Shown here in pieces: positions 38,628 through 57,080 of a DNA stretch of 64,000 bases. The notes beneath the pieces are model-generated. The model saw only the letters and a program-made list of their open reading frames with translations, did no database searches and was not told where the DNA came from. Origin of the DNA: Janibacter sp. HTCC2649 (GTDB taxonomy: Bacteria; Actinomycetota; Actinomycetes; Actinomycetales; Dermatophilaceae); assembly GCF_000152705.1 (NCBI RefSeq), contig NZ_CH672413.1, positions 1,711,978-1,775,977 on the forward strand, written 5' to 3'. A program made the position numbers and the translations under genes. Each line of letters starts with the position of its first letter. Positions within the stretch are counted from its first letter, which is position 1.

Positions 38628-39986
38628 TCAACGGTTGCCGCTCGAGCGGGCGCTCGCGAAGGCACCGTCGAGGATGTCGAGCCCCTCGCCCAGGAGGTCG
38701 TCGGGCATGGACAACGGCGGGAGGAAGCGCAGGACGTTGCCGAAGGTGCCGCAGGTCAGGGTCACGAGGCCCTGCTGGGCACAGGCTGCCTGGACGGCCG
38801 CGGCGAGCGGGGCGTCGGGCGTCTTCGAGTCCGCGTCGCTGACGAGTTCGACGGCGAGCATGGCGCCGCGCCCGCGGATCTCACCGATGACGCCGGGGTG
38901 GGCGGCGGACAGGGCTTCGAGGCGTGGGCGGATGATGCCCTCGACGGATCGGGCGCGACCGGCGAGGTCCTCGACCTCCATCGTCTCGATGGCGGCGAGC
39001 GCCGCGGCGCAGGCCACGGGATTCCCGCCGTAGGTGCCCCCGAGACCTCCCGGATGGACGGCGTCCATGAGGTCGGCCCGCCCCGTGACGGCGGCGAGCG
39101 GCAGGCCGCCAGCCATGCCCTTGGCGGTCGTCACGAGATCGGGTACCACTCCTTCGGCGTCGCAGGCGAACCAGTCGCCGGTGCGGCAGAAACCGGTCTG
39201 GATCTCGTCCGCGATGAAGACGATCCCGTTCTGGCGACACCAGTCGGCGACGGCGGAGAGGTATCCGGGGGGCGGCACGATGAAGCCGCCCTCGCCCTGG
39301 ATGGGCTCGATGAGCACTGCGGCCACGTTGCCCTCGCCCACCTGCGCGTGGACCGAGTCGACCATCGCCGTGAAGGCCTCCTCGGCACACCGCTCAGGCC
39401 CGGTGGGCCAGCGGTAGGGGTAGGCCATCGGCACGCGATGGATGTCACCGGCGAACGGTCCGAAGCCCTGCTTGTAGGGCATGTTCTTGGCGGTGAGAGC
39501 CATCGTGAGGTTCGTGCGCCCGTGATAGGCGTGGTCGAAGACCACCACCGTCGACCGGCCGGTGGCGCAGCGGGCGATCTTCACCGCGTTCTCGACGGCC
39601 TCGGCGCCGGAGTTGAACAACGCCGAACGCTTCTCGTGCTCACCGGGCGTGTGACCAGCGAGCTTCTCGCAGACGGCGACGTACTCCTCGTAGGGCGTGA
39701 TCATGAAACACGTGTGGGTGAAGTCCTTCACCTGGCGACGCACGGCCTCAACCACCCGCGGCGCCGCGTTGCCCACCGTCGTCACCGCGATGCCCGACCC
39801 GAAGTCGATGAGCTGGTTGCCGTCGACGTCGACGAGGATCCCGCCACCGGCACGTTCGACGTAGACGGGCAGGGCCGTGCTCACGCCCGCCGACACGGCA
39901 ACGCGCTTGCGGGACTGCAGTGCCAGTGACCGCGGCCCGGGGATCGCCGTGGCCAGGATGCGGCGTTGTTCGATCCTCTCGCTCAT
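38628..39986 (-). CDS. gabT: 4-aminobutyrate aminotransferase
   Basis: A 452-residue class III PLP aminotransferase. The cofactor lysine is in TTAKGMAGGLPLAAVTG; NSGAEAVENAVKIAR, FDHAYHGRTNLTMALT and EPIQGEGGFIVPP are class III signatures. It converts GABA and 2-oxoglutarate to succinate semialdehyde and glutamate. ATG 39986 overlaps the upstream stop as ATGA. It is the last gene of the potDABC-dehydrogenase-gabT operon. No succinate semialdehyde dehydrogenase gene is obvious besides the aldehyde dehydrogenase nearby. Confidence 0.93.
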   Translation of the reverse strand: MSERIEQRRILATAIPGPRSLALQSRKRVAVSAGVSTALPVYVERAGGGILVDVDGNQLIDFGSGIAVTTVGNAAPRVVEAVRRQVKDFTHTCFMITPYEEYVAVCEKLAGHTPGEHEKRSALFNSGAEAVENAVKIARCATGRSTVVVFDHAYHGRTNLTMALTAKNMPYKQGFGPFAGDIHRVPMAYPYRWPTGPERCAEEAFTAMVDSVHAQVGEGNVAAVLIEPIQGEGGFIVPPPGYLSAVADWCRQNGIVFIADEIQTGFCRTGDWFACDAEGVVPDLVTTAKGMAGGLPLAAVTGRADLMDAVHPGGLGGTYGGNPVACAAALAAIETMEVEDLAGRARSVEGIIRPRLEALSAAHPGVIGEIRGRGAMLAVELVSDADSKTPDAPLAAAVQAACAQQGLVTLTCGTFGNVLRFLPPLSMPDDLLGEGLDILDGAFASARSSGNR

Positions 39987-41266
39987 CGGTCCTCCATGCC
40001 CCACGGTGACCCATATCCCTGCGGTTTGGGTGCCGCGAGCAGCTCGAGGAACGGTGCCGCGTCGAAGGCCTCCGGTCCGAGGACGCCGGTGCCGGACCAG
40101 ACACCTGCGGCGAGCAGCTCCAACGCCACAACGGGGTTGATCGCGGTCTGCCACACCACGCACTGGGCGTCGTAGTCGCGCATCGAGTCGGCGTTGTCGA
40201 CGACGTGGAAGAGGTAGGTGCGCCGGGGTTGTCCGTCCTTCCCGGTGCCGGTGACCCAGAGGCCGGCACACGTCTTGCCCTCCATGCGCGGCCCGATGGT
40301 CACCGGGTCGGGCAGTGCGGCGGCGACGACGTCACGCGGCGAGACCATGACCCCCTTGACGTCGATCGGCGTCGTCGAGTCCAGACCCAACGTGTGCAGA
40401 GTCTTGAGCATCGCGATCATCTCGGCGCCCAGGCCGTACTTGAAGGTCACCTTCTCGGCCTCGACCCAGCGCGGCATGAGAAGCACCTCCTCGTGCTCGA
40501 CGTGGACGCACTCCACCGGACCGATGCCCTCGGGGAACTCGAACATCTCGGGATCGCTGAAGGCCGGGAGGGTGAAGAAGCCGCTCTCGACGTCGACAGT
40601 GCCGTCAGATTGCGTGGCTCGGGCGCGATCCCACACGACCGGAGGGTTGAGGCACTCCTCGATGATCGTCCACATCGAGAAGCCGGGAGCGAAGATCTCG
40701 TTGCCCTCGTCGTCGCGGATGACGAGGTTGGCGCCGTCGCGGGTGCCGAGCTCGTCGATGTGCGAGAAGAGGTGGTCCGCGGCGTAGCGGGCGAAGACGT
40801 CCGACAGGCCGGGCTCCACCCCGATCCCGAGCAGGGCCAGTCGCCCACCCTGCTCCCACGACTGCTGCTGGGCGAACTGGCGGTCGCCCAGCTTCACGTG
40901 GGCCTTGGCGTAGGGCTCCTCCGGGTGACGCTCCGACAGGCTCATCGCCATGTCGAGGTAGTCCGCCCCGGCCGCGAGCGCCCCCTCGAAGATCGGCATG
41001 ACGAAGCGAGGGTCGACCGCGTTGAACACGTGGGTCGCCCGCACCTCGGCAGCGAGCTCGGTGACCGCCGCCGCCGACGACGCATCCACCTGGAGAGCCG
41101 TGAAGCGGGACTCCCCGGCGTTGCGGGACTGCACGGCCGCCACCGTCCGCTCGGCTCGCGTGAGGTCGTAGTCGGCGACGAACCACGCCTCGAAGAAGTC
41201 GCGTTCGGCCGCGATCCGCGCGGCGGCGTCACCGACCCCGCCGGCACCGATCATGAGAATGCGCAT
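39983..41266 (-). CDS. Saccharopine dehydrogenase-like NAD(P)-binding protein
   Basis: About 427 residues. A Rossmann motif opens the protein (RILMIGAGGVGDAAARIAAE), followed by ADYDLTRAERTVAAV and FNAVDPRFVMPIFEGALAAG, typical of the saccharopine/carboxynorspermidine dehydrogenase superfamily. ATG 41266 is preferred; TTG 41272 is an alternative. It lies between polyamine transport genes and gabT and overlaps gabT by ATGA. The substrate is unknown: position suggests a secondary amine made from polyamine and a keto acid. Confidence 0.8.
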   Translation of the reverse strand: MRILMIGAGGVGDAAARIAAERDFFEAWFVADYDLTRAERTVAAVQSRNAGESRFTALQVDASSAAAVTELAAEVRATHVFNAVDPRFVMPIFEGALAAGADYLDMAMSLSERHPEEPYAKAHVKLGDRQFAQQQSWEQGGRLALLGIGVEPGLSDVFARYAADHLFSHIDELGTRDGANLVIRDDEGNEIFAPGFSMWTIIEECLNPPVVWDRARATQSDGTVDVESGFFTLPAFSDPEMFEFPEGIGPVECVHVEHEEVLLMPRWVEAEKVTFKYGLGAEMIAMLKTLHTLGLDSTTPIDVKGVMVSPRDVVAAALPDPVTIGPRMEGKTCAGLWVTGTGKDGQPRRTYLFHVVDNADSMRDYDAQCVVWQTAINPVVALELLAAGVWSGTGVLGPEAFDAAPFLELLAAPKPQGYGSPWGMEDR

Positions 41267-41277
41267 CGACAAGCGTC

Positions 41278-42090
41278 CTATCTCTTGCGGGCGTTGCCCA
41301 CGAGTTGGCCGGCAACGACGAGGAGCACCGCGATGACGAACATCGAGAAACCAATCACGTTGGCCTGAGCGGGAATTCCGCGTAAGTAGGAGACGTAGAC
41401 GAACTTCGGGAAGGTCGTCGTGTCGCCGGAGACAAAGTTGGTGATGATGAAGTCGTCGAAAGACAACGAGAACGACAACAGCGCGGCCGACACGATGCCC
41501 GGCAGCACGAGCGGGAAGGTGACGCGCCAGAACGTCCCGCCCGGCCCGGCATACAGATCCTGCGCAGCCTCTTCCAACCGCGGGTCGAGACTCTGCAGGC
41601 GAGCCTTCACCGTCACGACCACGAAGCTGATGCAGAACATGATGTGCGCGATGACGATCGTCCAGAAGCCCAGCCGCAGACCGAACCGCGAGAAGCCCTG
41701 CACGAAGATCGTCAGCAGGCTTGCACCGAGGACGATCTCGGGCGTGGCCATGGGGATGAAGATGAGCACGTTGCTCGTCGAGCGGCCACGGAAGCGGTGT
41801 CGCACAAGGGCAAACGCGAGCATCGTCCCGAGGATCGTGGCGACCACGGTGGCCAGCGCGCCGACCTGGATCGAGGTGACCAGCGCGTCACAGACCCCGG
41901 GCGCACCGCACGGGTCCTTCCAGTGCTTCAGCGTCGGACCGGACGCAGAGTTCCAGACAATGTTGGACTTGCGGTAGTCGTTGAACGAGAAGGCGAACGT
42001 GTAGGCGACCGGCACGAACAGGTAGAGCAGCACGATGATCGCCGCGATCATCGCGAACCGCGTGCGGAACCAGTCCTTGAGAGCGATCAC
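41278..42090 (-). CDS. Polyamine ABC transporter permease (PotC-like)
   Basis: A 270-residue permease with about six transmembrane helices and the EAA loop LEEAAQDLYAGPGGTFWRVT facing the ATPase. The first helix is AMIAAIIVLLYLFVPVAYTF. GTG 42090 overlaps the PotB stop as GTGA. It pairs with the next permease and the PotA ATPase for spermidine/putrescine uptake. Confidence 0.92.
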   Translation of the reverse strand: MIALKDWFRTRFAMIAAIIVLLYLFVPVAYTFAFSFNDYRKSNIVWNSASGPTLKHWKDPCGAPGVCDALVTSIQVGALATVVATILGTMLAFALVRHRFRGRSTSNVLIFIPMATPEIVLGASLLTIFVQGFSRFGLRLGFWTIVIAHIMFCISFVVVTVKARLQSLDPRLEEAAQDLYAGPGGTFWRVTFPLVLPGIVSAALLSFSLSFDDFIITNFVSGDTTTFPKFVYVSYLRGIPAQANVIGFSMFVIAVLLVVAGQLVGNARKR

Positions 42091-43004
42091 AGCAGGTCCT
42101 CCGTCCCGAACTTGCGGATGTAGACGAAGACCATCGCCAGGATCATGGCCATCAACGTGAACGAGAGCGCCGCCGCGACCGGGAAGCCACCGAGCACCTT
42201 GAAGAACTGGCTCTCGATGACGTTGCCGACCATCTTGGTGCTCCGGTCGGACCCGAGGAGCTCGGCGTTGACGTAGTCGCCAGCGGCCGGGATGAACGTG
42301 AGCAGCGTGCCGGCGATGACACCGGGCATCGACATCGGCAGGGTCACCGTGCGAAAGGTCGTGAACCCGTTGGCATAGAGGTCTCCCCCGGCCTCGATGA
42401 CCCGACTGTCCGCGCGTTCGAGCGAGGCATAGATCGGCAGCACCATGAACGGCAGGAAGTTGTAGGTGAGCCCTGCGACGACCGCCATCCAGGTCTCGGT
42501 GATCCGCCCTCCCGGCAGCACGTGCAGGAAGTTCAGGGTCTCTGCGACCGGCCCGTTGTCGGACAGGATCTGGCGCCAGGCGATGGTGCGCAGGATGAAC
42601 GACGTGAAGAAGGGGGCGATGACGCAGATCATCATGACGTTGCGCCAGCGACCGGCCTTGAATGCCATCGCATAGGCGAGCGGGTAGGCCAGGACGAAGG
42701 CAAACAAGGTGGCCAGGCCGGCATACAACAGGGATCGTCCGAAGTGGCCGGCGAAGTCGGTCAGCGCCGTGAGGTAGTTCCCGCCGTTGACGTCCCGGTA
42801 GTAGTAGCCCGGGAACCCGGGGAAGCCCGACTGCAGCGACACGGTGAACAGCTGCACGAGCGGCAGCACGAAGAACACGAGCAGCCACAGCCCGCCCGGA
42901 AGAAGCAGCAGGTATGCCGTCCGCGAGCGTTTGCGTCCGGCGCCCGGATCCGGACCGGCCACACCCGTTCCGGCGCCGGCGACGTGCGCGACTCCCGCGG
43001 TCAC
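42087..43004 (-). CDS. Polyamine ABC transporter permease (PotB-like)
   Basis: A 305-residue permease with about six transmembrane helices, a Gly/Ala-rich N-terminal cytoplasmic stretch and the coupling loop IEAGGDLYANGFTTFRTVTL. The start is GTG 43004, overlapping the PotA stop as GTGA. Periplasmic loop YYYRDVNGGNY is typical for PotB-type subunits. Confidence 0.92.
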   Translation of the reverse strand: MTAGVAHVAGAGTGVAGPDPGAGRKRSRTAYLLLLPGGLWLLVFFVLPLVQLFTVSLQSGFPGFPGYYYRDVNGGNYLTALTDFAGHFGRSLLYAGLATLFAFVLAYPLAYAMAFKAGRWRNVMMICVIAPFFTSFILRTIAWRQILSDNGPVAETLNFLHVLPGGRITETWMAVVAGLTYNFLPFMVLPIYASLERADSRVIEAGGDLYANGFTTFRTVTLPMSMPGVIAGTLLTFIPAAGDYVNAELLGSDRSTKMVGNVIESQFFKVLGGFPVAAALSFTLMAMILAMVFVYIRKFGTEDLL

Positions 43005-44197
43005 GACGCGTCCACGCTCGCGGTCGGGGAGGCGGCATCGGCGGCATCGGCACCGGCGGCCGCGGCGGCGTCATCGACCGGGACACCGAAGGCGTGACCG
43101 GAGTTCCACTCGAGCCAGACCGCGTCGCCGGGCCGCAGATGGTTGCGCTCGATGTCGAGGTTCTGCTCGTAGACCGCCCAGGTGGCCCCCGACGGCGTTG
43201 TCACGAGGAACTGGGTCGCAACACCCGAGAAGCTCACGTCGACGACCGTGGCCTTGACGTCGTTGCCGCCTCCGACGGGCTGGGTCTCGGTGATGCGGAC
43301 CTTCTCGGGACGCACCCCGAAGGTGATCGGCCCCTCGCTGACGCTGGAGCGGGCCTTGGGAATCCGCACCGTCGTTCCCGCCACCTCGACGACGAGGTTC
43401 GTGCCTTCCGTACCCGTCACGACGCCGTTGCCGAGGTTGGACTGCCCGAGGAAGTTGGCCACGAAGGACGTCTTGGGCAGGTCGTAGAGGACCTCCGGGT
43501 GTCCGAGCTGCTCGATGTGACCGAGGTTCATCACCGCGACGGTGTCGGCCATCGTCATGGCCTCTTCCTGGTCGTGGGTGACGTGGATGAAGGTCAACCC
43601 CACCTCGGTCTGGATCCGCTTGAGCTCCACCTGCATCTGGCGTCGCAGCTTGAGGTCGAGGGCGCCGAGCGGTTCGTCGAGCAGGAGGACCTCGGGTCGG
43701 TTGACCAGGGCACGGGCCACGGCCACGCGCTGCTGCTGGCCACCGGACAGCTGGCTCGGCTTGCGGGCAGCCAGGTGGGTCATCTGCACCAGCTCGAGTG
43801 CCTCGTCGGCCAACCTCACCGCGTCCTGCTCGCCTCGCCTCTTGGGCCCGAAGCTGACGTTGTCGCGGATGGTGAGGTGGGGAAAGAGCGCGTAGCTCTG
43901 GAAGACCGTGTTGACCGGGCGCTCGTAGGGTCGCGAGCCGGTGAGGTCCGTGTCGCCGATGAGGAGGCGACCGCTCGTGGGCTGCTCGAGGCCGGCCACC
44001 ATGCGCAGGGTGGTCGTCTTGCCGCACCCGGACGGGCCGAGCAGGGCGAAGAACGACCCGCGAGGGACGTCGAGCGTGAGGTCGTCGACGGCCGTGAAGT
44101 CGCCGAAGACCTTGGTCACGGCGTCGAGGTGCAGGTCGCCCTGGGCCTGCCGGAAACCCCTGGAACCCTTGCCGCGTGCGCTGGAGAAGACACTCAT
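43001..44197 (-). CDS. Polyamine ABC transporter ATPase (PotA-like)
   Basis: A 398-residue ATPase. Walker [14 protein letters not shown]-loop [12 protein letters not shown], signature [16 protein letters not shown], Walker [13 protein letters not shown] and the H-loop THD are all present. A C-terminal TOBE domain (about residues 280-370) follows. An Ala/Asp-rich tail closes the protein. ATG 44197 shares a base with the PotD stop (TGATG). Confidence 0.94.
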
Positions 44198-45444
44198 CAG
44201 TTACCCACCACCTTGGCCCAGGCGGCGCTGTAGTCGGCGTCCTCCTGGGAGCTGAGAGCCCGGAAGCCCTGGATGTTGTTGTCCTTGAGGTACGCCGCGT
44301 CCGGGAAGATGAACGGGCTGCTGGCGAGATCCGGGTCGATCTTCTCCATCTCGGCCTGCGCACCCTGGACCGGGCAGACGTAGTTGACGTAGGCCGCGAC
44401 CTGCGCCGCCACTGCAGGCTCGTAGTAGTAGTCCATGAGCGCCATGGCGTTGCGCCGGTGGGTCGAGGTGATGGGAACCATCATGTTGTCGCTCCAGAGC
44501 GTCCCGCCGGACTCAGGGATGACGAACTGCCAGTTGTCGTTCTCGGTCTCGGCCCGAAGGACGAAGAGGTCCCCGCTCCAGACGATGCCTGCGATCGCGT
44601 TGCCGGACTTGAGGTCCTCGATGTAGGAGTTGCCCTTGACCCGGCGGATGTAGCCGTCGGCGATCCGCTTGTCGATCTCGGCGACGGCGGCCTCGAACTG
44701 GGCCTTGCCGAAACCGCCGGAGATGTCGACGCCCTGGTTGAGCATGACCAGACCGAGGGTGTCGCGGAACTCGCTCAGGACGACGACCTTGCCCTTGAGG
44801 TCCTCGGCCCACAGGTCGTCGAGGGTCTTGAGGTCGCGGCCCACCTTGGACCGGTCGTAGCCGATCCCGGCGAACCCGCTCTGCCAGGTGAGGGAGTACT
44901 CCCGGCCGGGGTCGAACGAGACGTCCTTGAGGGCGTCGAGCAGGTTGGCCGCGTGGGGCATCCGGATGAGCTCGAGCGGTTGGGCCAGCTGGTCGCGGAT
45001 CACCCGGTTGGCCATCCAGTCGGTGAAGACGAAGATGTCGCGCCCGATGTCCTGCTTGGCGCGCAGCTGCGGGGCGACCTTGTTGAAGTAGGAGTCGTTG
45101 TCGTCGACGTCCTCGGTGTAGGTCGCCTTGATGCCGGACTCCTTGATGAAGGCCTCCAGCGTCGGGTAGTTCTTGGCGTCCTCGTCGTAGTCGAGGTAAG
45201 CCGTCCAGTTGGCGAAGCGGACGACCTTGTCGGTCGCCGACACGTCCGTGGGGAGCTTCAGCTGGGCGGCACCCGATGCGGGTGGGGCTGGGGGTGCGCA
45301 GCCCGCCAACGTCGTGGCGACTCCACCCAGCACGCCGGCGCCGAGCAGCGACCGCCGCGTCACCGAGCGCGGTCGGGTCGACGCTCGGGCTGCACGGACC
45401 AGGTCCGCGACGACGGGGTCTGCAGGAGGACGAAAAGGCTTCAT
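44197..45444 (-). CDS. Polyamine-binding lipoprotein (PotD-like) with Tat-type signal
   Basis: A 415-residue solute-binding protein. The signal has a twin-arginine motif (VTRRSLLGAG) and a lipobox (LAGC), so it is probably exported folded by Tat and lipidated. The mature part begins with VVRFANWTAYLDYDEDAK, has FVFTDWMANRVIRD and IAGIVWSGD and ends with a PotD-like fold. It is the first gene of the operon, placing the binding protein upstream of ATPase and permeases. ATG 45444 follows AAGGCGAG. Confidence 0.92.
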   Translation of the reverse strand: MKPFRPPADPVVADLVRAARASTRPRSVTRRSLLGAGVLGGVATTLAGCAPPAPPASGAAQLKLPTDVSATDKVVRFANWTAYLDYDEDAKNYPTLEAFIKESGIKATYTEDVDDNDSYFNKVAPQLRAKQDIGRDIFVFTDWMANRVIRDQLAQPLELIRMPHAANLLDALKDVSFDPGREYSLTWQSGFAGIGYDRSKVGRDLKTLDDLWAEDLKGKVVVLSEFRDTLGLVMLNQGVDISGGFGKAQFEAAVAEIDKRIADGYIRRVKGNSYIEDLKSGNAIAGIVWSGDLFVLRAETENDNWQFVIPESGGTLWSDNMMVPITSTHRRNAMALMDYYYEPAVAAQVAAYVNYVCPVQGAQAEMEKIDPDLASSPFIFPDAAYLKDNNIQGFRALSSQEDADYSAAWAKVVGN

Positions 45445-45538
45445 GTGCGCTCGCCTTGCTGGTCGGGGCGGGCCCAGGGAGCGGGTCCGGCACGGGGGAA
45501 CGACGGGGTGGGACGGGTGTGACGAGGTGGGACTGGGG

Positions 45539-46984
45539 TCAGCTCTCGATGTTGGCCATGACGTGCTTGATCCGGGTGTAGTCCTCGAACCCGTACATCG
45601 ACAGGTCCTTGCCATAGCCGGAGCGTTTGAAGCCACCGTGCGGCATCTCCGCGACGATGGGGATGTGGGTGTTGATCCACACACACCCGAAGTCGAGGGC
45701 CGCGCTCATCCGCATGGCCCGGCCGAAGTCCTTGGTCCACACGGAGGAGGCCAGCCCGTAGTCGACGCCATTGGCCCACTGCAGGGCCTGGGCCTCGTCG
45801 GTGAAGGACTGGACCGTGATCACCGGACCGAAGATCTCGTTCTGGATCTGCTCGTCGTCCTGACGCAGACCGGACAGGACCGTCGGCTCGAGGAAGTAGC
45901 CGTCACCGAGGCCGGCCAGCCGGTGCCCGCCCGCCACGAGGGACGCGTGGTCGGGAAGCCGATCGATGAAGCCACTGACGCGTTCGAGCTGGGCCACGTT
46001 GTTGACCGGACCGAGCAGCGCGTCCGGATCGTCCGGCATACCCACCTTGGCGTTGTTGCGCGCATAGTCGCCGAGGGCGGCGACGAAGTCGTCGTGGATG
46101 CGCGGTCCGACGAGGACACGCGTCGCGGCGGTGCAGTCCTGACCCGCGTTGAAGTAGCCGGCGACCGCGATCCCCTCGACGGCCGCCTCGATGTCGGCGT
46201 CGTCGAAGACGATGACCGGGGCCTTGCCGCCGAGCTCGAGGTGGACCCGCTTGACCTGCGGTGCCGCGCTGGCCGCGACCTCGGCTCCGGCTCGCACCGA
46301 TCCGGTGATGGAAACCATTGCGGGAGTGCGGTGTTCGACGAGCAGGCGCCCGGTGCCGCGGTCTCCCGTGACGACGTTGAGCGTGCCAGCGGGCAGGAAC
46401 TCGGAGGCGATCTCGGCCAGCAGGAGCGTCGTCTCGGGAGTGGTGTCACTCGGCTTGAGCACGACCGCGTTGCCGGCCGCGAGGGCCGGTGCGATCTTCC
46501 AGATCGCCATCATGAACGGGTAGTTCCACGGGGTGACCTGTCCGATGACACCGATCGGCTCGCGCCGGATCCACGAGGTGTGGCCGGCCATGTACTCCCC
46601 CGCGGCACGTCCTTCGAGGACGCGGGCAGCTCCGGCGAAGAAGCGCACCTGGTCGATCGCCGGCGGCAGCTCCTCGCTCGCCGTGAGCGCGTGCGGCTTG
46701 CCGGTGTTCTCGGCCTCGAGCTGGACGAACTCGTCGGCCCTGGCCTCGATCGCGTCGGCGAGGCGCAGAAGGGCCTGCTGCCGCTCGCTCGGCGTGGTGC
46801 GACCCCACTCACCGAACGCTGTGGTCGCTGCGGCGTATGCCGCGTCGATGTCGGCTTCGTTGCTCACCGCCGCGCTGGCCACGACGGCGCCCGTGGCCGG
46901 GTTGATGATGTCCTGCCTGGCCTCACCTCGGGCGTCCGTGTAGGCGCCGCCGACGAAGTTGCGCAGGACTCGGGGCTCACTCAC
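45539..46984 (-). CDS. Gamma-aminobutyraldehyde dehydrogenase-type aldehyde dehydrogenase
   Basis: A 481-residue NAD(P)-dependent aldehyde dehydrogenase. The catalytic Glu is in [11 protein letters not shown] and the Cys in [12 protein letters not shown]; the QDCTAATR form is typical of PatD-like aminobutyraldehyde dehydrogenases. [12 protein letters not shown] binds the cofactor. The GTG start follows AAGGAGG. It is divergent from the lrp-like gene, 94 bases upstream of potD. It would oxidise 4-aminobutanal (and perhaps succinate semialdehyde) in putrescine breakdown. Confidence 0.9.
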
Positions 46985-47080
46985 GACCTGGACCTCCTTG
47001 GGGTCAATCGATGTCGCACTCTAGCCAGACGAAGCGTGGAAAAACCAGAGTTTGGCTGCAGTTGATCCGGAATCCATAGG

Positions 47081-47108
47081 TTGACTCCCTCGAAATGAGG
47101 GATACCGA
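47081..47108 (+). promoter_or_regulatory. lrp-like gene promoter with palindrome in spacer
   Basis: TTGACT (47081-47086), a 16-base spacer and TACCGA (47103-47108) face the lrp-like gene. The palindrome TCCCTC-gaaat-GAGGGA (47086-47102) fills the spacer, a natural operator position for autoregulation or for the divergent aldehyde dehydrogenase. The ATG at 47095 lies inside it and is therefore an unlikely start. Confidence 0.5.
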
Positions 47109-47154
47109 CAGTCATGTGGTTGCGCATGGCAGCAATCCGCGCCACCATGTCGGC

Positions 47155-47640
47155 GTGAGCCAAGCAGCCCGACCCAGCGCGGAGCCGTCCAAGACGCGTC
47201 TTGACGACGTGGCCAAACGCATCGTCGAGATCCTCCAGCGCGACGGTCGACGCTCCTACGCCGCCATCGCCAAGGAGGTCGGGCTGTCCGAGGCGGCCAT
47301 CCGGACCCGGGTCCAGCGGCTCCTCGACGGCGGCGTCATGCAGATCGTCGCGGTCACCGACCCCTTGCAGCTGGGCTTTCGTCGTCAGGCGATGATCGGC
47401 GTCCGCACCGACGGTGACCTCCTGGCCGTCGCCGACAAGCTCACCGAGCTGCCCGAGGTCGACTATCTCGTGACGACCGCCGGCACGTTCGACCTCCTCT
47501 GCGAGGTCGTGTGCGAGGACGACGACCACCTGCTCGAGCTCATCACGCAGCGCATGCGTCGCATGCCCGGAGTCGTCTCGACCGAGACCTTCGTCTATCT
47601 CAAACTCAACAAGCAGCACTATGACTGGGGCACGCGATGA
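47155..47640 (+). CDS. Lrp/AsnC family transcriptional regulator
   Basis: About 161 residues from GTG 47155. The N-terminal HTH (LDDVAKRIVEILQRDGRRSY then AAIAKEVGLSEAAIRTRVQR) is followed by an RAM ligand-binding domain (VRTDGDLLAVADKLTELPEV to the end). It overlaps the next aminotransferase by ATGA, and is divergent from the aldehyde dehydrogenase. It likely senses an amino acid or polyamine product and controls the island. Confidence 0.88.
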   Translation: MSQAARPSAEPSKTRLDDVAKRIVEILQRDGRRSYAAIAKEVGLSEAAIRTRVQRLLDGGVMQIVAVTDPLQLGFRRQAMIGVRTDGDLLAVADKLTELPEVDYLVTTAGTFDLLCEVVCEDDDHLLELITQRMRRMPGVVSTETFVYLKLNKQHYDWGTR

Positions 47641-49040
47641 CCGAACAGAGCACCGAACCGCAGACGACGCCTGCCGGCACGTCCTACCAGGACGCGGCCC
47701 GCGACCACCTCTGGATGCACTTCACCCGGCACTCGGTCTTCGAGGACGGCGGATCGGTCCCGGTCATCACCCGCGGTGAGGGACACACCATCTGGGACAA
47801 CCAGGGCAAGTCCTACATCGACGGGCTCTCCGGGCTGTTCGTCGTCCAGGTCGGGCACGGGCGCGAGGAGCTCGCCGAGGCCGCCGCCGAGCAGGCCCGG
47901 AAGCTCGCGTTCTTCCCGCTGTGGTCCTATGCGCACCCGCCGGCCATCGCCCTCGCCGAACGGCTCGCCGCCGGCGCACCCGGCGACCTCAACCGGGTCT
48001 TCTTCACCACCGGTGGTGGTGAGGCCGTCGAGACCGCCTGGAAGCTCGCGAAGCAGTACTTCAAGCTCACCGGCAAGCCCAACAAGACCAAGGTGATCAG
48101 CCGAGCGGTCGCCTACCACGGGACACCTCACGGTGCCCTGTCGATCACCGGCATCCCGGCCGCCAAGGAGGCCTTCGAACCGCTGGTCCCCGGGGCACTC
48201 AAGGTGCCCAACACCAACCTCTACCGCGCGCCAGAGCACCTGCGCGACGACGAGAAGGCGTTCGGGCGCTGGGCTGCCGACCGCATCGCCGAGGCCATCG
48301 AGTTCGAGGGACCGGACACGGTCGCGGCTGTCTTCCTCGAGCCCGTCCAGAACTCCGGCGGCTGCTTCCCGCCGCCCCCCGGCTACTTCGAACGGGTGCG
48401 CGAGATCTGCGACGAGTACGACGTCCTCCTCGTCTCGGACGAGGTCATCTGCGCCTTCGGTCGCATCGGATCGATGTTTGCGTGCGACGACTTCGGCTAT
48501 GTGCCCGACATCATCACGTGCGCCAAGGGCATGACCTCGGGCTACGCCCCGATCGGCGCCATGATCGCGAGCGACCGCCTCTTCGAACCCTTCAAGAAGG
48601 GCACGACGACGTTCCCCCACGGCTTCACCTTCGGCGGACACCCCGTCTCGGCAGCCGTCGCCATGGCCAACCTCGACATCTTCGAGCGGGAGGGTCTCAA
48701 CCAGCGCGTCAAGGAACACGCCCCCACGTTCCGGGCCACGCTTGAGAAGCTGCTCGACCTGCCGCTCGTCGGCGACGTCCGCGGGGCCGGCTACTTCTAT
48801 GGCATCGAGCTCGTCAAGGACAAGACCACCCGCGAGACGTTCAACGACGCCGAGTCGGAGCGACTGCTGCGTGGCTTCCTGTCCAAGGCCCTGTTCGAGG
48901 CCGGGCTCTACTGCCGCGCCGACGACCGGGGCGACCCCGTGATCCAGCTCGCGCCCCCACTCACCGTCGGGCCCGAGCAGTTCGACGACATCGAGCAGCG
49001 ACTTCGCGGCGTCCTCATCGAGGCCGAGAACCACCTGTGA
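47637..49040 (+). CDS. Class III omega-aminotransferase, putrescine/diamine type
   Basis: A 467-residue PLP enzyme. The cofactor lysine is in ITCAKGMTSGYAPIGAM; TTGGGEAVETAWKLAKQYF, RAVAYHGTPHGALSITG and EPVQNSGGCFPPP are motifs of the pyruvate-dependent omega-aminotransferases (SpuC/PatA-like group). It should convert putrescine or another diamine to the aminoaldehyde. The start overlaps the lrp stop by ATGA. Confidence 0.88.
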   Translation: MTEQSTEPQTTPAGTSYQDAARDHLWMHFTRHSVFEDGGSVPVITRGEGHTIWDNQGKSYIDGLSGLFVVQVGHGREELAEAAAEQARKLAFFPLWSYAHPPAIALAERLAAGAPGDLNRVFFTTGGGEAVETAWKLAKQYFKLTGKPNKTKVISRAVAYHGTPHGALSITGIPAAKEAFEPLVPGALKVPNTNLYRAPEHLRDDEKAFGRWAADRIAEAIEFEGPDTVAAVFLEPVQNSGGCFPPPPGYFERVREICDEYDVLLVSDEVICAFGRIGSMFACDDFGYVPDIITCAKGMTSGYAPIGAMIASDRLFEPFKKGTTTFPHGFTFGGHPVSAAVAMANLDIFEREGLNQRVKEHAPTFRATLEKLLDLPLVGDVRGAGYFYGIELVKDKTTRETFNDAESERLLRGFLSKALFEAGLYCRADDRGDPVIQLAPPLTVGPEQFDDIEQRLRGVLIEAENHL

Positions 49041-49066
49041 GACCGGCCGCGGGCTGAGGCGCCGCC

Positions 49067-50428
49067 GTGGAGACCTGGACCCAACCCCTGTGGTGGGAGA
49101 ACGAGACGCGGGCACCCACGCACGCACCCGGCATACCCGATCGAGCGGACGTCACGATCGTCGGAGCCGGCTACACGGGTCTGTGGACCGCGTACTACCT
49201 CCTGCGGGAGCAGCCCGACCTCGACGTGCTCGTGCTCGAGGCCGGGCACGTGGGATTCGGCGCCAGTGGGCGCAACGGCGGTTGGGTGTCCTCACTGTGG
49301 CCGGTGGCTCCCGCACGGATCGCCGCCAGCCACGGCCGGGTGGCTGCACAGGCCATGCTCGCCGGGCTGCGCAGCACGGTCACGCACGTCGGGGAGGTCT
49401 GCCGTGAGGAAGGCATTGATGCCGACTTCGCCCACGGGGGCGTGATCATCGCCGCCCGTGGCAAGGCGCAGGCCCAGCGCGCGATGGCCTCGGTCTCCGA
49501 GAGCGAACAGTGGGGCGATGACACGCGATGGCTCGACCCTGCCGAGGCGCGCGACATCCTCGCGGTCGACGACCTCCACGGCGCCACGTGGTCACCGCAC
49601 TGTGCCCGCATCCACCCGATGCGGCTCGCCCAGGGGCTGGCTGCCGCAGTGCGCCGTCGTGGCGGGCTCATCGTCGAGGGCGCACGGGTGCTCGACGCCC
49701 AGGCTGGCGCGGTGCGGGTCAGCGGAGGCGGGATCGTGCGCAGCGGCGCAGTGGTGCGCGCCACCGAGGCGTGGACGGCACGTTTGCCGAGGCTTCGCCG
49801 CAAGGTCGTCCCGGTGTACTCGCTCATGGTGGCGACGGCGCCGCTACCGGCGTCGGTGTGGGACGAGATCGGGCTGGCCCGTCGCGAGGTCTTCTCGGAC
49901 CACGGGCACGTCATCATCTACGGCCAACGCACCGAGGACGACCGGATCGCCTTCGGGGGCCGAGGGGCGCCCTACCACTGGGGATCGGCCATCCACCCGA
50001 GGTTCGACGAGGACGCCACGGTCTTTGCGGCGCTGCGTCGCACCTTGAAGACGCTCCTGCCCCAGGTCGGTGACGTCGAATTCACCCATGCCTGGGGTGG
50101 GCCCCTGGCCGTGGCCCGCGACTGGCAGCCGTCCGTGGGTTTCGACGCCGACGCCCGGGTGGGTTGGGCAGGTGGCTACGTCGGCGACGGCGTGGCCGCG
50201 AGCAACCTCGCCGGTCGCACGCTGGCCGACCTCATCGGGGGACGCAACACGGCGCTGACGGCCCTTCCGTGGGTCGGTCACGTCTCACCCCGATGGGAAC
50301 CGGAGCCGCTGCGCTATCTCGGCGTCAACGCCGGGCTTCGGCTGGCAGGTCTCGCGGACGCTCAGGAAGCTCGAACCGGTCGACCCACGCGGTTGACACC
50401 GCTCTTGGGGCGGCTGACGGGAGGCTGA
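49067..50428 (+). CDS. FAD-dependent amine oxidoreductase (PuuB/DAO family)
   Basis: A 453-residue DAO-fold oxidase. The dinucleotide motif is VTIVGAGYTGLWTAYYL (residues about 29-45) followed by VGFGASGRNGGWVSSLWP; the C-terminal GWAGGYVGDGVAASNLAGRT binds FAD. This is the gamma-glutamylputrescine oxidoreductase-like family. GTG 49067 has only a weak upstream site. It follows the aminotransferase after 26 bases in the lrp operon. No glutamate-putrescine ligase (PuuA) gene is in view, so the substrate may be a free amine or another adduct. Confidence 0.88.
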   Translation: METWTQPLWWENETRAPTHAPGIPDRADVTIVGAGYTGLWTAYYLLREQPDLDVLVLEAGHVGFGASGRNGGWVSSLWPVAPARIAASHGRVAAQAMLAGLRSTVTHVGEVCREEGIDADFAHGGVIIAARGKAQAQRAMASVSESEQWGDDTRWLDPAEARDILAVDDLHGATWSPHCARIHPMRLAQGLAAAVRRRGGLIVEGARVLDAQAGAVRVSGGGIVRSGAVVRATEAWTARLPRLRRKVVPVYSLMVATAPLPASVWDEIGLARREVFSDHGHVIIYGQRTEDDRIAFGGRGAPYHWGSAIHPRFDEDATVFAALRRTLKTLLPQVGDVEFTHAWGGPLAVARDWQPSVGFDADARVGWAGGYVGDGVAASNLAGRTLADLIGGRNTALTALPWVGHVSPRWEPEPLRYLGVNAGLRLAGLADAQEARTGRPTRLTPLLGRLTGG

Positions 50429-52842: not shown

Positions 52843-54423
52843 TCAGTAGCCCCGCCATTCCCCCTGACGCTCGAGCAACGTTGGCTTCAGCAGGGTCGAA
52901 GGTGACAACCGCAGCTCGGCGCGGTCCCGCGGGAAGACCTGTGCGGCCATCAGCACCCGGGCGTCAAGAAACTGGGTCGTGGGCGCGTCAGGGGGCATCC
53001 GAAGTGCGGGGGACTCTCCAACGGCCGCCAGGAAGAAGCCCCAGTCACCAAACGACGGAACATCCACGTGGTATGCCGTGGGGCGCAGTCCCGCGGCTCG
53101 CAACGAGGCCGCTGTGGTCCAGTAGGCCTCCCGTGCGAAGTAGGGCGAGCCTGCCTGCACGACCACGCGACCCTCGGGGGCGAGCGCAGTTCGGATGAGG
53201 CCGTAGGTCTCAACCGAGTAGAGCTTTGCAGTGGCGACGTCGTCGGCGTCCGGCATGTCGGCCACGATGACGTCGAACTGGTCGCGGTTGGAACGCAGCC
53301 AGGCGAACGCATCAGCGTTGACCACCTTGAGTCGGGGGTCAGCGAAGGCATCCGCATTGAGGCGCCGAAACGTCGCATTGGTGCGGGCAAGATCGACGAC
53401 TGCCGGATCAAGATCCACCAGTGTGATGGCGTCAACATCGTTGTAGCGCAACAGTTCTCGCGCGGCGAGGCCATCGCCACCACCGAGCACGAGGACGCGC
53501 TGGTGCTGGCCCGTCATCGCGGGGTGAACGAGGGATTCGTGATAGCGGTACTCATCCATCGAGGAGAACTGGAGATCGCCGTTCAGGAAAAGTCGCATGT
53601 CGCCACCGCGCAGACTGTGGGTCACGACGATCTCCTGGTAGGCGCTGCGTTCCGCGTGGACGACGGGGTCCCGAAAGATCCGTTGTCGCGCCGTCGCCTC
53701 GAAAGACGACGCTTGGGCGGCCAACACCAGCAGCACGGCGAGACAGGCAAGCAGCGCCACCGCCAGAGCCGCCCTGACTCCCCGACGCACCTCACGTCGG
53801 AAGAGTCCCAACGTCACGGCTGCGCCCGCGGCGGCATTCACCGCGCCGACGACGAGCGTGCCCTCGAGCAGGCCCAGCCACGGAAGCAATACGAACGGAA
53901 AGGCCAGCCCCCCAACGAGCGCTCCGACGTAGTCCGCAGCGAAGAGATCGGCCACCGCCGATGAGGCCTCCTGCTCCCGGATGCGCTGCAGCATGGTCAT
54001 GAGGAGGGGGATCTCGGCGCCGATGAGGAAGCCGATGGCGAGGGCAAGCAGGACGAGAACGGGCTGGTACAACGACCACCAGGCGAAGGCGGCATACAGC
54101 ACGAGGACGCTCGTGCCGCCCACGAGCGCGAGGACGATCTCGACCCCTGCGAACGCGACAGCAGCATGAGCAGTCAGCGGTTTGGCCGCGAGCGACCCCA
54201 CACCCATCGCGAAGACCATCAGCGCCAGGACGACGGACGCCTGGGTGATCGTGTTGCCGAGCAGATAGGACCCGAGTGCGACCAGGGCCAGTTCGTAGAC
54301 CAACCCACAGGCCGCACACACGAAGACAGCGGTGAGGACGAGCGACCGGCGAACGCGTGCCGTCCGACCTTCGCGCGCTGGGTCCACAGTGACGTCGGTG
54401 ACGTCGGCGCGTGAGGATCCCAT
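52843..54423 (-). CDS. Membrane-anchored polyamine aminopropyltransferase (spermidine synthase-like)
   Basis: A 526-residue two-part protein. The N-terminal half (about residues 28-240) has six to seven transmembrane helices; the C-terminal half is a spermidine synthase-like domain with DEYRYHESLVHPAMT, the SAM-type loop VLVLGGGDGLAARELLRY, ITLVDLDPAVVDLAR and VIVADMPDADDVATAKLYS. The acidic DMPDAD region suits amine binding. ATG 54423 is one base after the DUF350 stop. It is the last gene of a DUF4178-DUF2617-lipoprotein-DUF350 operon. The enzyme activity is inferred, and the substrate could be something other than putrescine. Confidence 0.88.
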   Translation of the reverse strand: MGSSRADVTDVTVDPAREGRTARVRRSLVLTAVFVCAACGLVYELALVALGSYLLGNTITQASVVLALMVFAMGVGSLAAKPLTAHAAVAFAGVEIVLALVGGTSVLVLYAAFAWWSLYQPVLVLLALAIGFLIGAEIPLLMTMLQRIREQEASSAVADLFAADYVGALVGGLAFPFVLLPWLGLLEGTLVVGAVNAAAGAAVTLGLFRREVRRGVRAALAVALLACLAVLLVLAAQASSFEATARQRIFRDPVVHAERSAYQEIVVTHSLRGGDMRLFLNGDLQFSSMDEYRYHESLVHPAMTGQHQRVLVLGGGDGLAARELLRYNDVDAITLVDLDPAVVDLARTNATFRRLNADAFADPRLKVVNADAFAWLRSNRDQFDVIVADMPDADDVATAKLYSVETYGLIRTALAPEGRVVVQAGSPYFAREAYWTTAASLRAAGLRPTAYHVDVPSFGDWGFFLAAVGESPALRMPPDAPTTQFLDARVLMAAQVFPRDRAELRLSPSTLLKPTLLERQGEWRGY

Positions 54424-54424
54424 C

Positions 54425-54853
54425 TCAGCTGATGGCGGCAGCCACGATGAGCGCGACCGAGAGGTGCGAACTGGCACCGACCCATGCCGCGGGGTGCCGC
54501 TCCTGATCGGTCACGAGATCTCCGAGTCGACCGGGAGTGAAGGCATCGATGACGACGAAGAAGACCGCCATGATGACCAGCCCGAGCAGCCCGTAGACAG
54601 CGGTGGAGATCAACCCGTGGGCCAACCCGTCGTAGCTGGAGCGGATCGCGGTGACAACGATGATCGCGACGGCGAGCATGTTGGACGACAGCAAGAGGGC
54701 GGCGTTGCCGTTGCGCTTGTCCCAGATGAGCTCTCGCAGGCTGCCGGGCGTCAGCGCGTCGACCACGCCGTATCCGGCTGCCATGAGGAGCAGTCCGACG
54801 GCGCCGAAGGCAGCGATCGCCCCGACATCGTTCAGCAGATCTCCAGCGTTCAT
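54425..54853 (-). CDS. DUF350 family membrane protein
   Basis: A 142-residue protein with four predicted helices arranged as two similar halves (AAFGAVGLLLMAAGYGVVDA and LLGLVIMAVFFVVIDAFTPG repeats, each with a D-A-LTPG/FTPG end). DUF350 has no known reaction. ATG 54853 follows GAGAGG. It is immediately upstream of the aminopropyltransferase gene. Confidence 0.85.
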   Translation of the reverse strand: MNAGDLLNDVGAIAAFGAVGLLLMAAGYGVVDALTPGSLRELIWDKRNGNAALLLSSNMLAVAIIVVTAIRSSYDGLAHGLISTAVYGLLGLVIMAVFFVVIDAFTPGRLGDLVTDQERHPAAWVGASSHLSVALIVAAAIS

Positions 54854-54914
54854 CGTGTGCCTCTCAGGTGTGTTCGGGTCTCGACGGTGCGTGTCAGGGG
54901 TGCGGTCGGGGAGC

Positions 54915-55148
54915 TCATTTGCCGACGCCGGAGCCGCCACCGCGCACGCGGCTGCCGCCGGAGCCGTAGTAGCTGCGACCGGAGTCGCGATCACAGGCAT
55001 CGCGCGCCTGCTGGTCCGTGGGAGTGGTACCAGTGATGGAGCGCTGGTCCTCCTTGTAGCGCTTCATGCACTGGCGGTCCTCGCCGCACCCGGAGAGCAG
55101 GGTCATCGAGGTGAGGACGACGAGCAGCGCGGTCAACGGGCGTCGCAT
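54915..55148 (-). CDS. Small lipoprotein
   Basis: A 77-residue lipoprotein. The signal MRRPLTALLVVLTSMTLLSG ends in the lipobox LSGC. The mature 57 residues carry two further Cys (RQCMKRYKED and RDACDRDSGRSYYGSGG), which could form a disulfide, and a Gly/Ser-rich tail. A strong AGGAGG precedes ATG 55148. It overlaps the DUF2617 stop by 16 bases. It may be the counterpart of the lipoprotein seen in related operons. Confidence 0.75.
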   Translation of the reverse strand: MRRPLTALLVVLTSMTLLSGCGEDRQCMKRYKEDQRSITGTTPTDQQARDACDRDSGRSYYGSGGSRVRGGGSGVGK

Positions 55149-55711
55149 GGGACTTCCTCCTGAAGAGCTGCCGGCGCGGCGGGGCTGGCCGGGCTGGCGG
55201 GGTTTGTCAACCGGATGTGGGTGCGGGTGCTCACGACTTGGCCGTGCTGCGGATAGGCATGCCACGTGCGCCATCGCACCTCACCGTCGACTCCGGTCTC
55301 GGCGTGAAGCGCGGTGACAGCGTAGGAGTTGCCCGGGAAGGAGGCACTGAGGGCACCGCGTCGCCCGCGCAGATCAGTGAGGAGCTGATCGACGCGGGCG
55401 CGCAGATCAGCCGCAGACAGCTCGACCACGGTCGTGGTCAGGTCATAGGTCAGCCCACCCTCCAGGGCACGACTCACGCCGGGGCTCGGCAGGGGGGTCG
55501 CGACGCCGGGGACACAGGCCACGGTCTCGATGAGGTCGGGGAGCCCGGCGCGCGACAACACGACCTGGTGCGATGCCCCGAGGATGCGCAGCTGCATGGG
55601 GAACCCCACGGGGCGCGCCGCGGCGAGTGCCGGCAGCGCGTCGTGATCCAGGGACCAACGCAGTTGCTCGGCGCTGGTGTCGAGATAGGGCAGATCAAGC
55701 CGGTGGTGCAT
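55133..55711 (-). CDS. DUF2617 family protein
   Basis: A 192-residue protein with no transmembrane segment: LDLPYLDTSAEQLRWSLDHD, LSRAGLPDLIETVACVPG and SFPGNSYAVTALHAET are DUF2617-like. The function is unknown. ATG 55711 is well spaced from GGGAAGG; the GTG six bases upstream overlaps it. It overlaps the DUF4178 stop by 17 bases, showing one transcription unit. Confidence 0.8.
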   Translation of the reverse strand: MHHRLDLPYLDTSAEQLRWSLDHDALPALAAARPVGFPMQLRILGASHQVVLSRAGLPDLIETVACVPGVATPLPSPGVSRALEGGLTYDLTTTVVELSAADLRARVDQLLTDLRGRRGALSASFPGNSYAVTALHAETGVDGEVRWRTWHAYPQHGQVVSTRTHIRLTNPASPASPAAPAALQEEVPCDAR

Positions 55712-56173
55712 CGTCACCTTCCCGGTAGGCCGTCACCAGGTCAGCAGGCACCGGGCTTCCCGTGCTGATCTCCCACGACAGCGCGCCGAAGCGCTCGAAC
55801 GACAGGAACAGCCCCTCGTGCAGGTACTCCACGTAGTCGCACCTGCCCGACATGGCGTAGGGCGTGCGTCCCTCAGTGGAGTAATCCGCCACGCCCTTCT
55901 CGTGCCGCGTCCACCGCCGGCCGTCGACGGTGAGCCGACGCGCACCTGGCGTTGCGTTCAGGTCAGGGCGGGATGTCCAGAGCCTCACCAGGGACCATCG
56001 TCGATCTCGACCGACAGCCATTGCGCACCCAGCCCGGCACCCTCCAGAAGGTGCTCAGACCACGCATCGCCATCCTCACTGAGCCGGACCGAGCCGATGA
56101 TGCGCGCGGGACGACCCTGCACGTGCACGATCACACCAGGTGCGAGGTCGGCGAGGGAGACGAGAGCGGCCAT
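55695..56173 (-). pseudogene. DUF4178 gene, split by a single-base frameshift
   Basis: The first part, from ATG 56173 after GGAAGG, reads MAALVSLADLAPGVIVHVQG to QWLSVEIDDG and stops at 55985. The second part, in the next frame, reads WSLVRLWTSRPDLNATPG and continues to FERFGALSWEISTGSPV, ending at 55695. Joined near 55995 they make about 159 residues of a DUF4178-type protein. One base appears to be missing in GACGATGGTCC. If real, the first gene of the operon is broken; a sequencing error is equally possible. Confidence 0.75.
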
Positions 56174-56258: not shown

Positions 56259-57080
56259 TCAGCTTCCGGAGTTGTCCACAGGACGCCTGACACGCTCCGA
56301 GCCCTCGTCGCCGGAGCTGGCTTCCACGGCAGCAAGGATCTGGCGGGCCTCGATGAGGGATGGCCCGTACCACGTGATGAGCCGGCCGTTCACCAACCGA
56401 GTTGGGGTGCGGGAGAACGCTTCTGGCCCATCAGCCTCCGTGAAGACATAGGGTTCGTCGGGCAGCAGGACGAGGTCGGCACCGGCAGCGTCGAGCTGCT
56501 CCAGGTCGGCGTGCGGATAGCGCCCCACGGCACCGGCAGTCACCACCTCGAGTCCCAGACGCGCGAGCAGGTCGGCCGTGAAGGTGGGGTGGCCGACGAC
56601 CATCCACGGGTCCCGCCAGATCGGCACGATGACCCGTGCGCCCGAGGTCGGGACCTCGCCGGACCACGCCTCCTCGGCCTCGGTGAGCCACTGCGGCGCA
56701 GCCCACCCACAGGCCTCCACGAGGAGCCGGCGCATCGACGCCAACGACTGCGGCACCGTCTCGATGTCGGTGACCCACACGGCAGTTCCCGCCGCACGCA
56801 GACGCGAGACGTCGAGCTCGCGGTTCTCCTCCTTGTTCGCGATGACGAGGTCGGGTTGGAGATCCGCGATGGCCGCGCGGTCGGGATTCTTCGTCCCCCG
56901 CACCCGGGTGACCTCGATGTCCGTCGGGTGCGTGCACCAGTCAGTTGCCCCCACGAGAGCGCCCGGGGTGGTCGCAGCCACCGCCTCGGTGAGCGAAGGG
57001 ACGAGCGAGACCACACGGCATACGCCGTCGTCTGGCAGGTCCACGGCGTGACCGAGGTCATCGCGCAGCGTTCGGCTCAT
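56259..57080 (-). CDS. Helical-backbone metal receptor (BtuF-like), no signal peptide
   Basis: A 273-residue protein of the periplasmic-binding class III fold: RVVSLVPSLTEAVAATTPGA, VGATDWCTHPTDI and a long central helix. No signal peptide or lipobox is visible, so it seems cytosolic, unlike true BtuF. The Cys-Thr-His stretch (DWCTHP) and the conserved Trp residues suggest binding of cobalamin, haem or a metal. ATG 57080 follows GAGG, 9 bases after the methyltransferase stop. Confidence 0.8.
   Translation of the reverse strand: MSRTLRDDLGHAVDLPDDGVCRVVSLVPSLTEAVAATTPGALVGATDWCTHPTDIEVTRVRGTKNPDRAAIADLQPDLVIANKEENRELDVSRLRAAGTAVWVTDIETVPQSLASMRRLLVEACGWAAPQWLTEAEEAWSGEVPTSGARVIVPIWRDPWMVVGHPTFTADLLARLGLEVVTAGAVGRYPHADLEQLDAAGADLVLLPDEPYVFTEADGPEAFSRTPTRLVNGRLITWYGPSLIEARQILAAVEASSGDEGSERVRRPVDNSGS

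Follow-up and report, generated by a model that had tools for sequence, protein, structure and literature searches.

DUF2617 as a candidate S-adenosylmethionine decarboxylase for the membrane-bound SpeE of a Janibacter operon

The 64,000-nucleotide stretch of the Janibacter sp. HTCC2649 genome analyzed here (the window) carries, on the minus strand at 52843-56173, genes for a membrane-bound aminopropyltransferase of the SpeE type, a DUF350 membrane protein, a lipoprotein, a DUF2617 protein, and a DUF4178 protein, all overlapping or close-set. DUF2617 is probably a divergent and compact S-adenosylmethionine (SAM, or AdoMet) decarboxylase (AdoMetDC) that feeds the membrane SpeE, and the operon would then encode its own aminopropyl-transfer chain. 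The operon itself is of a known kind; the new part is this proposal. An earlier note on the same DNA had described five genes on one strand that overlap or abut, as they do or nearly do, and had read them as an envelope-linked polyamine system. It overlooked four points: the genome has no SpeD, DUF2617 is a candidate for the donor-making enzyme, the conserved part of the lipoprotein is its tail and not its body, and DUF4178 is frameshifted.

The first question is where the aminopropyl donor comes from. An aminopropyltransferase needs decarboxylated SAM, normally the product of SpeD. No SpeD was found by profile search in the window genome, which is 99.97% complete; a PF01536 search of the same genome gave no match either, yet its controls were silent too, and it is hence uninformative. 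In a class sample of 286 genomes, with membrane SpeE counted over its curated cut-off, membrane SpeE occurs in 71, DUF2617 in 69, and SpeD in 11, and 64 of the 71 SpeE carriers have no SpeD. DUF2617 is present in 68 of these 71 genomes and in 1 of the 215 others (G234), where the SpeE gene is truncated. The three SpeE genomes without DUF2617 (G031, G078, and G107, two of them from one genus) all have a SpeD, and these SpeDs retain the Ser, His, and Cys; Fisher's test for the complementarity of DUF2617 and SpeD within the 71 genomes gives p = 0.0006, kinship uncorrected. Both proteins occur together in G018, G112, G261, and G197, and there each SpeD is without His68 or Cys83. As a side observation, the SpeD homologues at loci L037, L038, L039, and L040, in genomes with DUF2617, lack the active-site Cys in three cases and the His in one, and are candidates for a changed function.

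A phylum sample of 276 genomes, some in common with the class sample, gives a similar picture: SpeE occurs in 17, and 15 of those have DUF2617 over its cut-off. The exceptions are again G031 and G107, both with SpeD. Outside the class, SpeE was found in two genomes (G397 and G434); these have DUF2617 and no SpeD. Among the genomes that served as controls, those of Corynebacterium glutamicum and Haloferax volcanii matched the DUF2617 and SpeE models, and PF02675 was not matched in them. As for SpeD loci, 14 of the 22 scanned (most of ~3.3 kb) contain a SpeE domain, each match covering the catalytic part of the model only. No relatives of DUF2617 were found in viral contigs, and two weak places in plasmids were not used.

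The physical linkage of the two genes is equally tight. Across 76 membrane-SpeE loci, compared with 4 SpeD loci as a contrast, DUF2617 is present in 73, and it lies on the SpeE strand in all 75 loci that could be scored for both (two of them fetched additionally). Approached from the other side, 79 of 80 named loci retrieved through DUF2617 alone, mostly from Streptomyces, have a membrane SpeE on the DUF2617 strand. In 26 loci the operon is reduced to DUF2617 and SpeE, with no match to the DUF350 or DUF4178 profiles. According to an ORF (open reading frame) scan, SpeE is contained within one ORF in 76 of 78 loci, the exceptions being G128, with an in-frame TGA, and the truncated G234; an internal TGA was also flagged in further SpeE profile matches.

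Two kinds of variant deserve mention here. Five genomes (L071, L072, L074, L079, and L081) have two membrane-SpeE operons each, one with DUF350 and a tail protein of the kind described below, lacking DUF4178, and one of the two-gene form. At locus L102 of G128, DUF350 stands upstream of DUF4178, Cys66 of DUF2617 has become Tyr, and SpeE is interrupted by the in-frame TGA; the lost cysteine and the cut SpeE look like joint decay, with decay and rearrangement as the alternatives.

What in DUF2617 itself recalls a decarboxylase? Residues were counted over 75 sequences, the divergent G397 and G434 copies included; set aside were L075 (a match over two ORFs), L084, L092, and L106 (operons without DUF2617), L147-L150 and L335 (the SpeD/soluble-SpeE contrast), and L336 (weak, below the cut-off). 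S47, H48, E62, F125, P126, T133, W147, W150, H151, Y153, and P154 are invariant, and C66 is kept in 74 of the 75, G128 being the exception. S47, C66, F125, T133, and H151 are candidate counterparts of the pyruvoyl serine, the cysteine, and the processing residues of AdoMetDC, which we take to be Ser68, Cys82, Phe223, Ser229, and His243 of the human enzyme. In eukaryotic class 2 AdoMetDC (PF01536) the serine lies in the N-terminal half of the chain and the processing residues in the C-terminal half; DUF2617 would have the same arrangement. The Ser, Cys, and His positions have proposed counterparts in class 1 SpeD (PF02675) as well, and for the enzyme of T. maritima a passage of PMC10407285 gives S63, H68, and C83 as required. 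Unlike AdoMetDC, which in human 1jl0 has 334 residues, DUF2617 is a single chain of ~160.

Comparison of profiles points in the same direction. DUF2617 against SpeD scores 21.3, and 200 column shuffles have a mean of 11.4 and a maximum of 20.4; with a larger set the whole protein scores 22.2 and its second half 22.75, and none of 120 shuffles came as high in either case. The decoys, 51 profiles of further ORF families in these loci, score at most 18.96 and 18.68, below SpeD, some of them being probably antisense shadow ORFs and the set not amounting to 51 independent real proteins. In these profile alignments, which are of low probability, H151 (in WHAYPQ) is aligned with the processing histidine of SpeD, and the best local match of the first half sets GAS47H on the AESH pyruvoyl site.

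Predicted structures were compared with known folds as well. AlphaFold2 models were obtained for the window DUF2617 (predicted local distance difference test, pLDDT, 84.8; predicted template modeling score, pTM, 0.80) and for a Streptomyces DUF2617 (pLDDT 91.2, pTM 0.88), and the two are not independent, because nearly the same sequences were used for both. With VIA-align, the window model ranks human AdoMetDC first (1jl0_B; Z 7.7, root-mean-square deviation 3.7, 132 residues aligned), at a Z that is 2.2 above the next unrelated entry, and at least 12 more AdoMetDC entries appear at Z 4.2-4.9 among the matches listed. Residue 48 of this model comes opposite residue 69, at which the cleaved human chains start, and residue 74 of the potato enzyme, which would put S47 at the pyruvoyl position; in the Streptomyces model, the residue after the serine is again opposite potato 74. 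Nothing in a viral structure library matched the Streptomyces model at E <= 0.001.

Several results weigh against assigning DUF2617 to this enzyme. With Foldseek, neither model had a match at E <= 0.001, and AdoMetDC is absent among the 50 matches listed. The Z of 7.7 falls in the middling range of the tool, many unrelated folds stand at similar Z in the VIA-align rankings, and for the Streptomyces model the list is led by 3lyd_A (Z 5.6), 1jl0 is absent among the matches listed, and potato AdoMetDC is fifth (Z 4.7), tied with unrelated folds. On the sequence side, all 75 DUF2617 proteins have Ala46 where SpeD has Glu before the pyruvoyl Ser, although some SpeD homologues likewise have Ala or Gln there; the proposed counterpart of Glu247 is Gln in 51 of the 75. 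PF10936 is the only Pfam match of DUF2617 at E <= 0.1, with PF02675 and PF01536 not matched, so that the protein is not filed in these two sequence families, and, among other reasons because of Ala46, we do not claim membership in the AdoMetDC superfamily outright. The hhalign probabilities against SpeD are low, at 4-17%, which makes the profile comparison support, not proof; the first half of DUF2617 alone does not rise above shuffles (28 of 120 were as good), and hhalign against the single human AdoMetDC sequence found nothing. A PDB sequence search with the DUF2617 profile gave no match at E <= 10. Since DUF2617 is missing from only 3 SpeE genomes, of which two belong to a single genus, the test of complementarity is a small one and its cases are not independent in phylogeny. 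Finally, aminopropyl transfer releases methylthioadenosine (MTA), and 20 of the 71 genomes with SpeE show no strong match to MTA phosphorylase (judged by eye, with the best E weaker than 1e-30). This phosphorylase was rejected as a marker of the transfer; it is uninformative, being widespread both with and without SpeE.

With these points weighed, we still regard a decarboxylase as the probable function. DUF2617 would be a two-lobed, pyruvoyl-dependent enzyme of ~160 residues; self-cleavage of its proenzyme before Ser47 would create the pyruvoyl group, and the enzyme would use this together with Cys66, Thr133, and His151 to decarboxylate cytoplasmic SAM. In the next step, the membrane SpeE would move the aminopropyl group from decarboxylated SAM onto an amine.

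That SpeE can do so is suggested by its active site. Residues were counted over 77 sequences (in one, the match came in two pieces), with L102, L146, and the contrast loci excluded: Q263 is kept in 76, Y294 in 75, D317 of the GGGDG motif in 76, D389 in 75, and D392 in 73, residues which we take to have donor and acceptor roles. The earlier note had looked to the C-terminal domain for SAM-type binding, and the motif is there. Its Asp is, we assume, the mark of decarboxylated SAM rather than SAM, and a SpeE that uses SAM like a methyltransferase is accordingly disfavored under this presumed rule. The protein also matches polyamine aminopropyltransferases in the PDB, down to E 3.3e-32. It thus shares the catalytic motifs of soluble SpeE; unlike the latter, it has an N-terminal domain of seven segments, a cysteine-poor catalytic domain predicted outside the cell, and a linkage to DUF2617 instead of SpeD.

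On which side of the membrane, then, does the reaction take place? Seven hydrophobic segments are seen in the family-averaged hydropathy profile, read by eye. The three loops assigned inside contain on average 9.0 Lys plus Arg, those assigned outside 0.9, and inside exceeds outside in 77 of 77 sequences, though the inside stretches are longer (58 vs 32 residues); since the loops were chosen after the profile had been seen, this is a consistency count rather than a blind test. With an inside N terminus, seven helices would bring the catalytic domain outside. Cysteine is depleted ~12-fold in this domain (23 of 22331 residues, vs 48 of 3708 in 14 soluble SpeE encoded beside SpeD), while its share is 1.35% in the membrane part of these SpeE and 1.33% in DUF2617. 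On this sequence evidence we favor, with moderate confidence, a catalytic domain that faces outward. The acidic residues E44, E95, E137, and D164, within or beside the hydrophobic segments, are invariant, and the seven-helix domain may handle a cationic donor or acceptor.

As for the acceptor, the lipoprotein enters the story here. In 48 of 51 loci with DUF350, the ORF that ends just before DUF350 closes in a tail resembling (R)GGG[P/S]GxGK, and in the three others (L083, L102, and L333) the tail is on another ORF of the operon. The pattern was written after the first tails had been seen; a follow-up with the same pattern took every ORF whose end falls within a set interval before DUF350, and 48 of these 99 end in K, the same 48, compared with 87 of 4666 over whole loci. 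The body of the tailed protein is DUF4247-like in 36 of 52 loci and not in the other 16, which the window lipoprotein resembles; the same tail on different bodies indicates that it is the tail that is conserved, not the body. The tail goes with DUF350: a tailed protein is found in none of the 26 two-gene loci, for which reason the tail was rejected as a general substrate of SpeE. DUF350, DUF4178, and the tailed lipoprotein would form an accessory module that two-gene operons lack.

E. coli K-12 offers a parallel. In its yjfIJKLMC cluster, yjfL encodes the DUF350 protein; after it come yjfM, for a DUF1190 protein whose C-terminal region contains RGGYG and which ends in GG, and yjfC, by its RefSeq product name a peptide--spermidine ligase; ygiB and ygiC are alike, the motif being RGG(Y/F)G over both clusters, and the yjf cluster also has a PspA family gene. 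What is shared with the operon is DUF350, a glycine-rich C terminus, and a polyamine-conjugating neighbor, whereas a ligase related to glutathionylspermidine synthase stands in place of the aminopropyltransferase, and the tails end in GG, not GK. By analogy, the lipoprotein tail may receive a polyamine group. One may even imagine an extracytoplasmic protein modification in which DUF2617 makes decarboxylated SAM, the helices of SpeE pass this donor across the membrane, and the outward domain aminopropylates the C-terminal lysine of the lipoprotein (GGGxGxGK-COOH), but we consider this full scheme unlikely. The envelope-linked polyamine system of the earlier note is partly supported: the kept catalytic residues of SpeE, the predicted outward transferase domain, and the conserved lipoprotein tail all fit it.

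A simpler alternative is an ordinary spermidine pathway, in which SpeE would be anchored and face the cytoplasm, putrescine would be imported, and the lipoprotein and DUF350 would serve something else. This is compatible with DUF2617 being a decarboxylase. In the window genome no gene of the PF01276 decarboxylases or of PF00491 (the agmatinase family) was found, and the single PF02784 gene is lysA; these are the three diamine gene families that were searched. The window contains, at 38628-50428, a likely cluster for polyamine uptake and degradation, in which a GABA (gamma-aminobutyrate) transaminase and an aminobutyraldehyde dehydrogenase exceed their cut-offs and PotA/B/C/D-like ABC transporter genes stay below the curated ones, along with a class III aminotransferase and an FAD (flavin adenine dinucleotide) oxidoreductase. 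Taken together, these findings suggest that putrescine, if it is the acceptor, may be imported in this organism. The 26 loci with SpeE and DUF2617 but neither DUF350 nor a tailed protein agree with an ordinary pathway, as does a passage of PMC9397018 that puts spermidine in S. coelicolor at low levels. A cytoplasm-facing SpeE is, however, hard to reconcile with its seven hydrophobic segments, with the Lys/Arg-rich loops on the N-terminal side, and with the cysteine depletion relative to soluble SpeE, and we hold the ordinary pathway to be possible, if doubtful.

Could DUF2617 be something other than a decarboxylase? It might act as a partner for SpeE in binding, regulation, or assembly, and SpeE would then use SAM itself or a donor from another source. 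The near-perfect linkage of the two genes would suit an obligate subunit too, and neither model has a significant Foldseek match. However, three SpeE operons dispense with DUF2617 exactly where SpeD exists, DUF2617 has a conserved Ser/Cys/Thr/His pattern, SpeD is the top-scoring of 52 non-self profiles, and SpeE retains the GGGDG Asp, presumably a sign of decarboxylated SAM; a partner role appears improbable. The least likely reading gives DUF2617 the AdoMetDC fold and a pyruvoyl group but ornithine, arginine, or lysine as substrate, so that its product is the acceptor diamine and not decarboxylated SAM: such enzymes have repeatedly arisen from SpeD homologues (as a passage of PMC10407285 relates for ornithine and arginine) and the searches above found no diamine-making gene in the window genome, but this reading leaves SpeE donorless in genomes without SpeD, ignores the SpeD present in all three SpeE genomes that lack DUF2617 as well as a SpeE site that we presume suited to decarboxylated SAM, and is unneeded if the uptake genes allow import of the diamine.

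For a SAM decarboxylase, as preferred here, the relevant positions in the window are collected in Table 1 together with the remaining genes. The start of SpeE was set by choice at the ATG at 54423, while the ORF finder begins at a GTG at 54477. The SpeE-like protein scores 665.6 bits with NF002956 (curated cut-off 472) and also matches PF01564, the PF03994 score of DUF350 compares with a cut-off of 26, and DUF2617 scores 153.4 bits with PF10936. For the lipoprotein no Pfam family was matched at E <= 1, DUF4247 (PF14042) included, and the C-terminal tail is all that it has in common with the DUF4247 proteins. DUF4178 and DUF2617 overlap by 17 bases and DUF2617 and the lipoprotein by 16; gaps of 61 bases and 1 base separate the lipoprotein from DUF350 and DUF350 from SpeE.

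Table 1. Features of the operon in the window (positions in the 64,000-nucleotide stretch)
Feature	Position	Strand	Basis
Membrane aminopropyltransferase (SpeE-like, PRK03612), 526 aa, 7 hydrophobic segments + catalytic domain	52843..54423	-	NF002956, PF01564, PDB matches, active-site conservation, topology
SpeE catalytic domain, predicted extracytoplasmic	52843..53712	-	Loop charge bias 77/77; cysteine depletion 23/22331 vs 48/3708
DUF350 (YjfL-like) membrane protein	54425..54853	-	PF03994, 94.8 bits
Lipoprotein, 77 aa, lipobox LLSGC	54915..55148	-	Sequence; no Pfam family
Lipoprotein C-terminal tail RGGGSGVGK + stop	54915..54944	-	Window letters; tail family in related loci
DUF2617, proposed compact AdoMet decarboxylase	55133..55711	-	PF10936, co-occurrence, profile comparison, models
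DUF2617 Ser47 codon, proposed pyruvoyl-forming serine (GAS-H)	55571..55573	-	75/75; structural alignment of next residue
DUF2617 Cys66 codon, proposed Cys82/Cys83 counterpart	55514..55516	-	74/75; equivalence inferred from place after serine hairpin
DUF2617 His151 codon, proposed His243/His68 counterpart	55259..55261	-	75/75; register in profile alignments
DUF4178, split into ORFs 55985-56173 + 55695-56021	55695..56173	-	PF13785 in both pieces

The gene set of the five-gene operon named in the earlier note is thus present, with the reservation that DUF4178 is not one open frame. Its upstream ORF corresponds to model positions 2-45 (30.1 bits) and the downstream one to 50-135 (50.1 bits), each over the PF13785 cut-off of 25. 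Because the two halves are in different frames, either a frameshift mutation or a sequence error splits the gene; all 43 DUF4178 copies from related operons are a single unbroken ORF. The gene set recurs in tens of related genomes, and the grouping is therefore not due to chance. On the same strand, a gene for a TroA-like helical-backbone metal receptor (56259-57080) ends 85 bases upstream of the operon.

How much of this was known already? Ravi et al. 2024 (PMC11237479) describe, in the excerpts available, phage shock protein (PSP)-associated polyamine operons with DUF4178, DUF350, a spermine/spermidine synthase fused to seven transmembrane segments, and a lipoprotein, including a variant with DUF4247 and DUF2617. 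The window operon, which combines DUF2617, a small lipoprotein, DUF350, the seven-transmembrane SpeE, and DUF4178, is a DUF2617-bearing variant of this type, and the view of the earlier note that parts of the association were known and no biochemical role established agrees with that account. Three differences emerge from the same excerpts: their variant has DUF4247, which the window lipoprotein is not; DUF2617 is there a predicted enzyme with no reaction given, whereas the present proposal ties it to AdoMetDC; and neither the common C-terminal tail nor the outward topology figures in them. A passage of PMC13118837 mentions DUF2617 and names no reaction, and the term occurs in the text of PMC9505326, on elephant serum proteomics. 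Nothing equating DUF2617 with AdoMetDC was met in titles and abstract openings on AdoMetDC or SpeD in Streptomyces, Corynebacterium, Mycobacterium, and haloarchaea, a survey that left the subscription literature mostly uncovered.

Excerpts of PMC11841054 cite reports of de novo spermine synthesis in Streptomyces and Mycobacterium and give Rv2601 as the speE gene of M. tuberculosis, yet SpeD is missing from 64 of the 71 class genomes with the membrane enzyme. If the proposal is true, DUF2617 explains how bacteria without the usual SpeD supply their membrane SpeE, and a complete pathway is gained. Polyamine modification of the envelope would, in addition, become testable through the outward topology and the lipoprotein tail. 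Should the tail lysine be the acceptor, the product would be a hypusine-like aminopropyl-lysine at the cell surface, and the reaction would resemble the peptide-spermidine ligation after which yjfC and ygiC are named in RefSeq.

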